The position numbers were made by a program, and so were the translations under genes. Positions 10,272 through 42,993 of a DNA stretch of 64,000 nt are shown piece after piece. Within the stretch, counting starts at the first letter, position 1, and the number at the start of each line of letters is the position of its first letter. Source of the stretch: Clostridia bacterium. GTDB lineage: Bacteria; Bacillota; Clostridia; Oscillospirales; Acutalibacteraceae. The stretch is taken from assembly GCA_017416345.1 (NCBI GenBank), contig JAFQCR010000028.1, positions 1-64,000 of the forward strand, in the 5' to 3' direction. Below the pieces are notes generated by a model. That model saw only the letters and a program-made list of their open reading frames with translations. It was not told where the DNA came from and ran no database searches.

Positions 10272-11063
10272 CTATTCACCCTTATATCTTTTTCTGAAAT
10301 CGGTGGGTGACACGCCGATCCGTGCCTTAAAGGTGCGGCTGAAATTACTGTTATCGGAAAAACCGCACTTTTCAACTATAAGGCCGATGTCCATGTCGGT
10401 TTCGGCAAGCAGCTGTTTGGCACGTGCAATGCGGCAGGACATAAGATGCCCCATGACCGAAACGCCCGTTACCTCACGGAAGCGGTGGGAAAGCGAAGAT
10501 GCGCTGATGCTGTATTGCTTCGCAAGAGCATTTAAGGAAAACGGCTCACCGCAGTTTTCTTCAAACCGCCTTTTGATATCTGTGACGGTTTCGTCGGTCA
10601 CGGTGCCGAGATCAAGCGGTGTGCATCGGCAGACCGTGATAAGCAGTTGCTTTACGGCAAGCTGCTCCATCTCTTCGGCCAGACTTTCAAGGCTTTGATG
10701 CTCACGCAATATCCGCTTGAAGGCATCAACCGCTTCGTGCATCGCTTTGGACACATTTACAATATTGCAAAAGCCTTCGGGACGGTCGGTCAAAAGGGAA
10801 TATACGGGGCTGCTTTTGTTGATGACGGTGGGGTCGATGTGCAAAACGTATCGCTCATATTCTGCCGATCTTATTGTGACCGAGTGGTTTTCGTAACGGC
10901 TGAAAATCATAATATCGCCGCCTTTTGCGGTCAAGGCTTTACCGTTTACCTGAAGCTCGGCTTCGCCCTTTAGTATCAGAATTATCTGGTGGCAATCGTG
11001 AAAATGCGGCTTTTTCAAAAGCGTATCGTCGGCATAATAAACCTTTTGGACAATGCTTTGCAT
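10272..11063 (-). CDS. AraC-family transcriptional regulator
   Basis: A 263-residue regulator. The N-terminal cupin domain begins with KPHFHDCHQIILIL near residue 20 and AKGGDIMIFSRYENHSV. The C-terminal AraC domain (about 165-263) has FSLNALAKQYSISASSLSHRF, then IGLIVEKCGFSDNSNFSRTF and SPTDFRKRY. I chose the ATG at 11063, 7 nt after GGAGG-like AAGGAG; a TTG one codon earlier is possible. It is divergent from the flavin-enzyme operon starting at 11411 and is its probable activator. Confidence 0.88.
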   Translation of the reverse strand: MQSIVQKVYYADDTLLKKPHFHDCHQIILILKGEAELQVNGKALTAKGGDIMIFSRYENHSVTIRSAEYERYVLHIDPTVINKSSPVYSLLTDRPEGFCNIVNVSKAMHEAVDAFKRILREHQSLESLAEEMEQLAVKQLLITVCRCTPLDLGTVTDETVTDIKRRFEENCGEPFSLNALAKQYSISASSLSHRFREVTGVSVMGHLMSCRIARAKQLLAETDMDIGLIVEKCGFSDNSNFSRTFKARIGVSPTDFRKRYKGE

Positions 11064-11177
11064 CAAAACACTCCTTCCTTAACAATATTATATCAAAGTT
11101 TTTAAAATTTGCAAGATTTACATAATTAAAAGCAGAATTTATATAGCATATTTCGGCCGCTTATATTAAAATGTATC

Positions 11178-11183
11178 TATAAT
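11178..11183 (+). promoter_or_regulatory. Possible -10 box of the flavin-enzyme operon
   Basis: TATAAT sits just before the hairpin clusters. No fitting -35 is seen, which would suit an AraC-activated promoter. If used, the whole of unit B and most of unit A would be transcribed as leader RNA. Confidence 0.35.
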
Positions 11184-11383
11184 GATTGTAGAACGTGGAA
11201 ACGCATTGCGTTCCACAAAAGCTGATATATCAGCTTTTAAACAATCAAATTTATTGAAATTTGATTGTTTTTTCTACATCATTGCAATGGTTGTTGTCAA
11301 ATTTTCTTTGAAAATTTGCTACCAAATCGAAGATTTGGTGTTGAAATAGTATTTTAGTACTATTTCAATGTTCAACCACCATT
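11181..11383 (+). other. Two consecutive cloverleaf-like hairpin clusters in the operon leader
   Basis: Unit A: an outer stem 11181-11193 with 11272-11283 (one bulge) encloses three hairpins, 11195-11216, the perfect palindrome 11217-11238, and 11239-11270 with a perfect 14-bp stem. Unit B: an outer stem 11286-11296 with 11373-11383 (one mismatch) encloses three perfect hairpins, 11298-11318 (9 bp), 11321-11339 (8 bp) and 11341-11368 (11 bp). The units share no obvious sequence but have the same architecture. The SD of the next gene (AAAAGGAG) starts 10 nt after unit B. It is not one of the known riboswitch classes I can recognise. It may be a structured leader RNA or a miniature mobile element. 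Confidence 0.75.
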
Positions 11384-11410
11384 ATAAGGTGCAAAAGGAG
11401 ACGTGCAACA

Positions 11411-12730
11411 ATGCCAAGGGTGTATACCTCTTTTGATGAATTTAACAGCCAAAACACCGAGCTTCAGACGAATCTTCCGTTTTCGGAGGATGTGTCGGTG
11501 CTGGGAACTCCGTTTGAAATAGGCGGCAAAATCATACCCAATCGCCTTGTTTGTCAGGCTATGGAGGGCTGTGACGGCACGGCTGACGGTCGCCCCGATA
11601 CCCTCACCAAGCGTCGCTACGACCGATTTGCCAAGGGCGGAGCGGGTCTTATCTGGTTTGAGGCTACCGCCGTGATGCGAGAGGCAAGAGCCAATCCCCG
11701 TCAGCTTTTTATAAACGAAAACAACCTTGACGATTTCAAGCGCGAGGTCGAAAGCATCAAGGAAACTGCGCTCAAAGTCAACGGTTACGAGCCGATGATC
11801 GTTATGCAGGCCACCCATTCGGGAAGGTATTCAAAGCCCAACGGCACCCCTCAACCGCTTATAGCTTATAACAACCCTATTTTTGAAAAGGACTGCCCCA
11901 TATCACCCGACCGCATCGTGACCGATGAATACCTTGACCGTGTGGGCGAGGCGCTGGTAAAGGGCGCAATGCTGGCCGAAAAGGCAGGCTTTGACGGTGT
12001 GGATATAAAATGCTGTCACCGATACTTAAATTCCGAGCTGCTTTCGGCATTTGACCGTGACGGACGCTACGGCGGCAGTTTGGAAAATCGCACAAGATTG
12101 CTTCGTGAAAGCGTTTTGGGTGCAGTTCAAAGCTGTTCAAAGGACTTTTTGGTGTCATCCCGACTTAACGTTTACGACGGTTTCAAGCATCCTTACGGCT
12201 TTGGCGTGAAAAAGGACGGCAGTCTTGAGCTCGACCTTTCAGAACCCGATTGGCTGATAAAGGAGCTTTATAAATACGGTGTCCGATTGCTCAATATCAC
12301 TATGGGTAACCCCTATTTCAACCCCCACGTCAACCGTCCGTATGCACAAGGCGGTTACGAGGCTCCCGAACATCCCTTGACGGGTGTTGCACGTGTGCTT
12401 AACGGCACGGCCGAGCTTAAAGAAAAGAACCCTCAAATGGCAATTATCTGCTCGGCGGTATCCTTTTTGGGAACAGCGGCACCAAACGTTGTTGCGGCAT
12501 TTATCAAGGAAAATAAATTCGATCTTGCAGGCTTTGGCCGAACGGTTTTTGCTTATCCCGATTTTGCCAAGGATGTTTTGACAAAGGGCAGCATGGATAA
12601 AAATAAAATTTGTATCTGCTGTTCAAAATGCACCGAGATTATGCGAAAGCCCGGCGGCACACCCGGATGTGTTATCCGAGATAAAGAGGTTTATCTGCCT
12701 ATATATAAGGAATTGTGTGGAGGGAAATAA
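11411..12730 (+). CDS. Old Yellow Enzyme family NADH:flavin oxidoreductase
   Basis: A 439-residue FMN-dependent TIM-barrel reductase. It has the OYE opening (PFEIGGKIIPNRLVCQAMEG), the substrate/FMN motif ATHSGRY near residue 138, the YGGSLENRTR signature near residue 220 and CSAVSFLG near residue 355. A C-terminal cysteine cluster (ICICCSKCTEIM and GTPGC, about 400-425) resembles the 4Fe-4S site of 2,4-dienoyl-CoA and 2-enoate reductases. It would reduce an activated C=C bond using NAD(P)H. AAAAGGAG lies 10 nt upstream. It is the first gene of a six-gene operon. It lacks the second, NAD-binding domain of the long OYE enzymes; the flavoprotein at 13463 may partner it. Confidence 0.85.
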   Translation: MPRVYTSFDEFNSQNTELQTNLPFSEDVSVLGTPFEIGGKIIPNRLVCQAMEGCDGTADGRPDTLTKRRYDRFAKGGAGLIWFEATAVMREARANPRQLFINENNLDDFKREVESIKETALKVNGYEPMIVMQATHSGRYSKPNGTPQPLIAYNNPIFEKDCPISPDRIVTDEYLDRVGEALVKGAMLAEKAGFDGVDIKCCHRYLNSELLSAFDRDGRYGGSLENRTRLLRESVLGAVQSCSKDFLVSSRLNVYDGFKHPYGFGVKKDGSLELDLSEPDWLIKELYKYGVRLLNITMGNPYFNPHVNRPYAQGGYEAPEHPLTGVARVLNGTAELKEKNPQMAIICSAVSFLGTAAPNVVAAFIKENKFDLAGFGRTVFAYPDFAKDVLTKGSMDKNKICICCSKCTEIMRKPGGTPGCVIRDKEVYLPIYKELCGGK

Positions 12731-42812: not shown

Positions 42813-42827
42813 AAAAACAAAAGCGAT

Positions 42828-42982
42828 GATAGCCCTCCACAAACTGTGACAGTACGCGGCGTGTTTCACCGCATCCCAACCGCAGTAGCCCGAAAAAACA
42901 ACTACGGCTTCGGCAGTTATTCCCTTCACGTGGGTGTTTTCGCACCGTGGTCACGCTACTCATAATAACCGCACCTCTATCT
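42828..42982 (-). ncRNA. Lysine riboswitch (L-box)
   Basis: The minus strand reads AGATAGAGGTGC at 42982-42971, then the conserved pieces GAGTAGC, GAAGGGAATAACTGCCGAAG, GGGCTACTGC, GGTGAAACACGCC and ACTGTCA, and closes with GGAGGGCTATC (42838-42828), which pairs with the opening AGATAG as P1. These are the hallmark segments of the lysine aptamer in the right order and spacing. With lysine bound, the attenuator at 42782-42812 should form and stop transcription. Confidence 0.95.
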
Positions 42983-42993
42983 TTGCTTCTTAC

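Follow-up and report, generated by a model that had tools for sequence, protein, structure and literature searches.

Prokaryotic MITEs are described, in the main text of a review on these elements, as short and AT-rich, with inverted ends, AT-rich intergenic sites and folded transcripts, and the word 'cloverleaf' is absent from that main text (PMC10969869). In the Bacillus cereus group, the dispersed MITE-like repeats bcr1-bcr3 (BCR, 100-400 bp) have been identified, which are often located in UTRs or operons and carry a TTTAT motif (PMC6542083, PMC3446304). REP elements of 20-40 bp with their RAYT transposases represent a system of palindromic intergenic DNA (PMC3733652).

This paper describes an element of 203 bp located at positions 11181-11383 (+ strand) of the window, which is the whole stretch of 64,000 nucleotides that was analysed. 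Like the prokaryotic MITEs, the element is short and AT-rich, has inverted ends, occupies AT-rich intergenic sites and would give folded transcripts. It differs from them in that no parent insertion sequence was found, and in its cloverleaf architecture of two units, marked by extensive covariation and by a conserved centre that is not AT. The repeats bcr1-bcr3 resemble the element as dispersed MITE-like repeats and in their TTTAT motif, the counterpart of the TTATAA-like target of the element. They belong to another host group, and the descriptions of bcr repeats used here give no cloverleaf units. With the REP/RAYT system, the element shares the palindromic intergenic DNA and the presence of RAYT-like genes in some of its hosts. 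It is longer than the 20-40 bp of REPs, and the ends and the target of REPs differ from the ends and the palindromic target of the element. Integron attC sites are folded DNA with a conserved shape and a variable sequence, and by this description the element is similar to them. In the open-access literature searched, no description of the element family, with its unusual modular build of conserved shape, was found. The copy in the window is very probably a dispersed, non-autonomous, MITE-like mobile DNA element which landed 5' of a gene of the Old Yellow Enzyme family, and its position before this gene is one insertion among many.

The two-unit element in the window

A sequence-only reading of the region had reported eight helices in two units, each closing three hairpins, and this was confirmed: two cloverleaf-like units were identified at 11181-11383 (203 nt), each consisting of an outer stem around three hairpins. 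The folding energy of the segment is -76.8 kcal/mol, compared to a mean of -34.1 kcal/mol (sd 3.6) for 200 dinucleotide shuffles, none of which folded as well (z -11.7). The arrangement had been read as two consecutive clusters; two units are indeed present, but as parts of one element. Unit 1 (11181-11283, + strand) was defined by the fold and by covariation, and contains an outer stem of 11181-11193 paired with 11272-11283 and hairpins at 11195-11216, 11217-11238 and 11239-11270. Unit 2 (11286-11383, + strand) was defined by the fold, with 11286-11296 paired with 11373-11383 as outer stem and hairpins at 11298-11318, 11321-11339 and 11340-11369. The centre between the units is the dinucleotide GC at 11284-11285 (+ strand), read from the sequence and from related copies as part of CATT-GC-AATG (11280-11289). 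Of the stems that had been called perfect, those of 14, 9 and 8 bp are so. The 11-bp stem AAAAGCTGATA/TATCAGCTTTT turned out to be a loopless palindrome of which 9 bp are paired in the fold, and the second 11-bp stem is TTGAAATAGTA/TACTATTTCAA.

With AATG starting at 11181 and CATT ending at 11383, the segment fits the element exactly under a boundary model that was derived from an empty site and from tandem junctions, and these ends are common to the dispersed copies. For the window copy no empty site was found; the two parts of the presumed 2-bp target duplication would be the AT at 11179-11180, inside the TATA at 11178-11181, and the AT at 11384-11385. The 3' end of the element is located 27 nt upstream of the start codon (ATG at 11411) of the Old Yellow Enzyme family gene, an Oxidored_FMN gene (11411-12730, + strand). 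On the 5' side, a divergent gene for an AraC-family regulator is present (10272-11066, - strand). Both neighbours were assigned by Pfam matches and lie outside the element. In Rfam, no match at gathering was obtained within the element, and all matches of a more permissive scan fell far short of the gathering scores (best E 0.14). Elsewhere in the window, Rfam identified a single RNA at gathering, a lysine riboswitch at 42822-42987 (- strand, 95.3 bits).

Copies, ends and modules of the element family

It had been stated that the region is not one of the intergenic repeat families. This was wrong, since dispersed copies are present in other genomes and about 11 copies in the own genome, where 25 DNA matches, combined with the hits of the covariance model, were read as six copies with both flanks plus five left and five right parts. 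The partial copies break off at contig ends some 140 bp inside the element, which is the pattern that an assembler breaking on a repeat would produce. The element is present in all four genomes of the genus, the own genome counted. A covariance-model search of related genomes, which had been suggested as a check, was carried out with a model built from 15 copies. Within the bacterial family, the element was identified in at least 18 of 200 genomes and at least 14 of 135 genera, and within a class sample in at least 3 of 391 genomes, in each case with the own genome counted; these counts are lower bounds, with 12 candidates per genome scored for the family and 6 for the class. Among the genomes of the family, the distribution is patchy.

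In public genomes, 39 stretches were identified with a three-part pattern, of which 38 carry the label Clostridia bacterium or Oscillospiraceae bacterium and one that of an uncultured bacterium; the 39 include some copies known from the searches of G001, G002 and other genomes. Ruminant gut sites are named in 25 of the 39 titles. No match was obtained in viral contigs with two element patterns, or in phages and plasmids for the window copy or for the copy L101. In genome G199, three identical copies with different flanks were present, in addition to another identical pair. As in MITEs, a short non-coding element thus occurs in several dispersed copies, and a family with the fixed ends AATG...CATT at unrelated loci in many genomes was shown. 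The right flank of the copy L020 (G000:C32, about 158750-158859) contains another repeat, found in more than 20 places in G000 and in several in G002, which is unrelated to the element.

Since both the ends and the centre are prescribed by the pattern behind the 39 stretches, all copies in loci L077-L115 were excluded from the counts of ends and centres. Among 50 copies with both flanks, the left end ATAATG was identified in 48 and the right end CATTAT in 43. In the 48 copies with ATAAT..TTAT, the flanking base is T before the element in 40 and A after it in 40, followed outwards by a further T in 34 and a further A in 38. Judged from these flanks, the target is palindromic and TTATAA-like, and the copies lie between AT dinucleotides. 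Inverted ends of about 25 bp are present in some subfamilies. In one subfamily, TATAATGRTTRTRGTTWGTCGAAAC is found at both ends of many copies, in the manner of the terminal inverted repeats of MITEs. A 25-mer end gave 102 matches in 9 genomes with up to 3 mismatches, compared to none for the reversed control. In the subfamily of the window, only about 7 bp (TATAATG/CATTATA) of the inverted ends are clearly matched.

One clean pair of an occupied and an empty site was identified (G201:C75 and G199:C38), with 98% identity over 244 bp and an overlap of TTAT. Taken alone, this site fits a duplication of 0-4 nt, for which AT is the symmetric solution. In 12 other comparisons, the sequences had diverged too far for the boundary to be located; the paralogous L042 site is compatible. 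Where copies are arranged in tandem, exactly AT is present between CATT and AATG in 5/5 detected junctions (spacers of 0-8 scanned), and a sixth junction was seen by eye in L054. Scattered copies flanked by target duplications had been named as the mark of a mobile element: the scatter was found, and a duplication of the 2 bp AT is presumed from the symmetry of ends and target. In a test for direct duplications of 1-9 nt beyond the ends, for which the filter fixes positions 2-7 of the element ends, no convincing excess was detected (3 nt, 3 seen versus 1.3 expected; 4 nt, 1 versus 0.2). A duplication of TA was considered as well and was dropped after the empty site, at which it leaves asymmetric ends, and after the tandem junctions. 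In L095 (5573-6462), two inverted copies span 890 bp around a predicted gene of 158 aa, like in a composite transposon, with a third copy attached through AT.

Besides the dimers of about 200-218 bp, single hairpins of 54-61 bp and single cloverleafs of 104-133 bp were identified. Two identical single cloverleafs of 104 bp, located at different places in G201, correspond to unit 2 of a G199 dimer in 101/101 bases. The dimer centre CATT-NN-AA was counted in 47 readable copies that had not been fetched by the pattern, one further copy being unreadable; NN is GC in 37, TC in 5, GA in 3, TG in 1 and AA in 1, and AT in none. This suggests that the single unit is a movable module and the dimer centre a junction without an AT core. 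The 200-bp form would accordingly consist of two units joined at CATT-GC-AATG, a junction which, for the lack of the AT core, would not be used as an end. In L028, another type of unit 1 is combined with unit-2 hairpins equal to those of L031, so that units appear to have been exchanged between copies.

Conserved shape and genomic context

For the analysis of covariation, 32 diverse sequences were chosen from 78 unique copies. In the alignment, 57 of 88 pairs were changed on both sides, and 90.4% of cells pair, a percentage that is favoured by taking the structure from folds of the same sequences. None of 500 shuffles reached any of five measures, and slid structures pair in 35-46% of cells. 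The fold consists of 3+3 hairpins in 51 of the 78 unique copies, and of a single ring of seven in 19. In G378, a genome that belongs to another family within the class, the stems of the four copies read differ considerably, and the two-unit plan and the centre CATTGCAATG are retained. It was shown that many copies keep the 3+3 architecture while the stem sequences change in a compensated way. Selection on shape, which had been suggested from two units of like architecture and different sequence, is supported by this covariation.

Palindromes are known to correct themselves by template switching, which yields compensated changes. It is conceivable, though rather doubtful, that the shape of the mobile element is unselected and that its compensated changes were produced by mutation alone in this way. 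Perfect stems would follow from such a process, and both strands fold about equally (the plus strand is the more stable in 28 of the 78 unique copies), with no strand preference in the distinct wobble changes. A constant architecture is explained less easily, since in many copies the hairpins have the same number and order, and the outer stems persist, even where stems were replaced, as seen in the four G378 copies and in L022, L076 and L171. The strand preference was judged from wobble pairs: with the RNA of one strand under selection, G.U should exceed A.C on that strand. The raw mismatch cells on the plus strand, 22 G.U versus 60 A.C, favour the minus strand, with 35 of the 60 A.C cells coming from two columns. 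Counted as distinct events, the numbers are 16 versus 21 (p 0.51), and therefore no RNA strand is indicated. The conserved shape fits a constraint on DNA better than a constraint on one RNA.

The sequence-only reading had also considered a regulatory RNA of the operon. For a riboswitch-like cis-regulatory leader of the Old Yellow Enzyme operon, with homologues regulating related operons, the strong fold, the covariation and the short distance to the start codon speak, as does the location of copies near gene starts, with 64 of 108 distances of 100 bp or less. Against it, the orientation is random, gene starts lying on the sense side of the element in 51 cases and on the antisense side in 57 (p 0.63), and for tandem gene arrangements the corresponding numbers are 14 and 22 (p 0.24). 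The context of 73 copies (31 divergent, 36 tandem, 6 convergent) is similar to that of 95 intergenic TTATAA sites (33, 51 and 11), so that neither a constant orientation nor a constant location was found. Among 20 neighbour proteins, including the two of the window, 19 match Pfam families of many kinds and one matches none; the repeated occurrence before similar operons that was expected for an RNA is thus not seen. Because of orientation, neighbours and the dispersal as a repeat with fixed ends, to which the lack of an Rfam match at gathering is added, the regulatory RNA was rejected as very improbable. The other proposal of that reading, a miniature mobile element with a cloverleaf fold, agrees with the dispersed copies, the fixed ends, the empty site, the AT-joined tandems, the random orientation and the unrelated neighbours. 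For the mobile element, any effect on the Old Yellow Enzyme operon, as a structured 5' leader if transcribed, would be a by-product of insertion. The discovery of structured RNAs depends on covariation. This family passes such a test convincingly, yet it acts as mobile repetitive DNA and shows no preference for a strand or a gene. It thus offers a ready warning case and a negative control for structured-RNA searches.

With the flanks joined, 8 of 77 copies lie inside an open frame spanning at least 80 codons, compared to 311 of 454 TTATAA sites; the copies are thus mostly intergenic, and a few insertions may interrupt genes. An earlier measure, by which 0 of 87 copies lie inside a gene predicted with a simple custom script, was set aside, since a gene-breaking copy would escape prediction; the mobile-element interpretation does not depend on this measure. 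The copies at L104 3692, L110 1144, L103 832 and L095 5573 lie, with the flanks joined, in open frames of at least 200 codons and may interrupt genes. In L031, a copy starting at 1397 directly follows a THF riboswitch aptamer (1297-1397) on its 3' side, before the following gene, and is absent from the relatives L147 and L148. The copy at L029 1476-1677 (- strand) is located between the terminator of a T-box-like leader, recognised by eye, and a gene for phenylalanyl-tRNA synthetase. In L024, L027, L033, L037 and L167, copies appear by eye to lie directly 3' of a promoter-like TTGAMA...TATAAT, near the likely transcription start.

Candidate mobilising enzymes

An autonomous partner was searched for by paired ends in 916 kb, where ends more than 220 bp apart gave three pairs, each of them two copies. 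Orphan ends that were checked among the matches listed were contig ends or belonged to short or decayed copies. Since no autonomous element with the same ends was found, the element was filed as MITE-like only. A 96-bp match in L098, obtained in the end-pairing search, looks like chance.

We propose that a trans-acting enzyme would recognise the element ends, brought together by the outer stem in folded DNA, and would insert the unit with a 2-bp AT duplication. As a tentative extension, the recognised form may be the folded DNA cloverleaf itself, with the unit of about 100 bp as the movable form, dimers locked by the non-AT centre, and a putative enzyme reading shape over sequence. A possible candidate would be a serine recombinase that uses AT as its 2-bp crossover core, or else a novel type of transposase. 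If a shape-reading enzyme is involved, the covariation of an 'RNA-like' structure would report selection on DNA. The family raises tractable questions: what maintains the two cloverleafs of this non-coding mobile element although their stems are replaced, and by which enzyme the element is moved.

IS630/Tc1-type elements usually have short inverted ends and insert into AT-rich targets, and both features are found here. Mobilisation by a DDE transposase of this type with TA duplication is nevertheless hardly credible: DDE_3 (PF13358) was detected in 0 of 28 genomes, and besides the asymmetry at the clean empty site, the ends TAATG...CATTA predict CATTATATAATG in tandems, whereas CATTATAATG was observed. 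A Y1/HUH transposase of the RAYT-like type, acting on folded single strands as in the case of REP elements, would insert AATG...CATTAT 3' of TTAT without target duplication, which also fits the empty site and the tandem junctions, and folded ends suit such enzymes. Divergent Y1 open reading frames (about 160-225 aa) were present in 7 of 17 genomes that carry the element, compared to 0 of 11 in which the element searches gave no match (Fisher p 0.023, the grouping being post hoc). For eight of these proteins, from six genomes, the best family is the NCBI REP-associated transposase, although all eight score under the NCBI cut-off. When every Y1 match was counted, the numbers were 12 of 17 versus 4 of 11, and none was found in five element-bearing genomes, including G001, G003 and G199 with its three identical copies. 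Of 16 Y1 stretches scanned, only L272 (genome G012) clearly contains a copy of the element, at a distance of 1.4 kb from the gene, so that the element was not found to flank a RAYT gene of its own. In addition, A prevails next to the right end, which speaks for a symmetric target, and element orientation shows no relation to the G-rich local strand (42 versus 39). Mobilisation by a Y1/HUH enzyme is therefore considered unlikely, and the co-occurrence of RAYT-like genes with the element is a lead only. Of seven RAYT-like regions searched, five hold another short inverted repeat. In L263-L273, RAYT-like open reading frames of 161-224 aa were identified, several of which have their own short inverted repeat next to them or close by.
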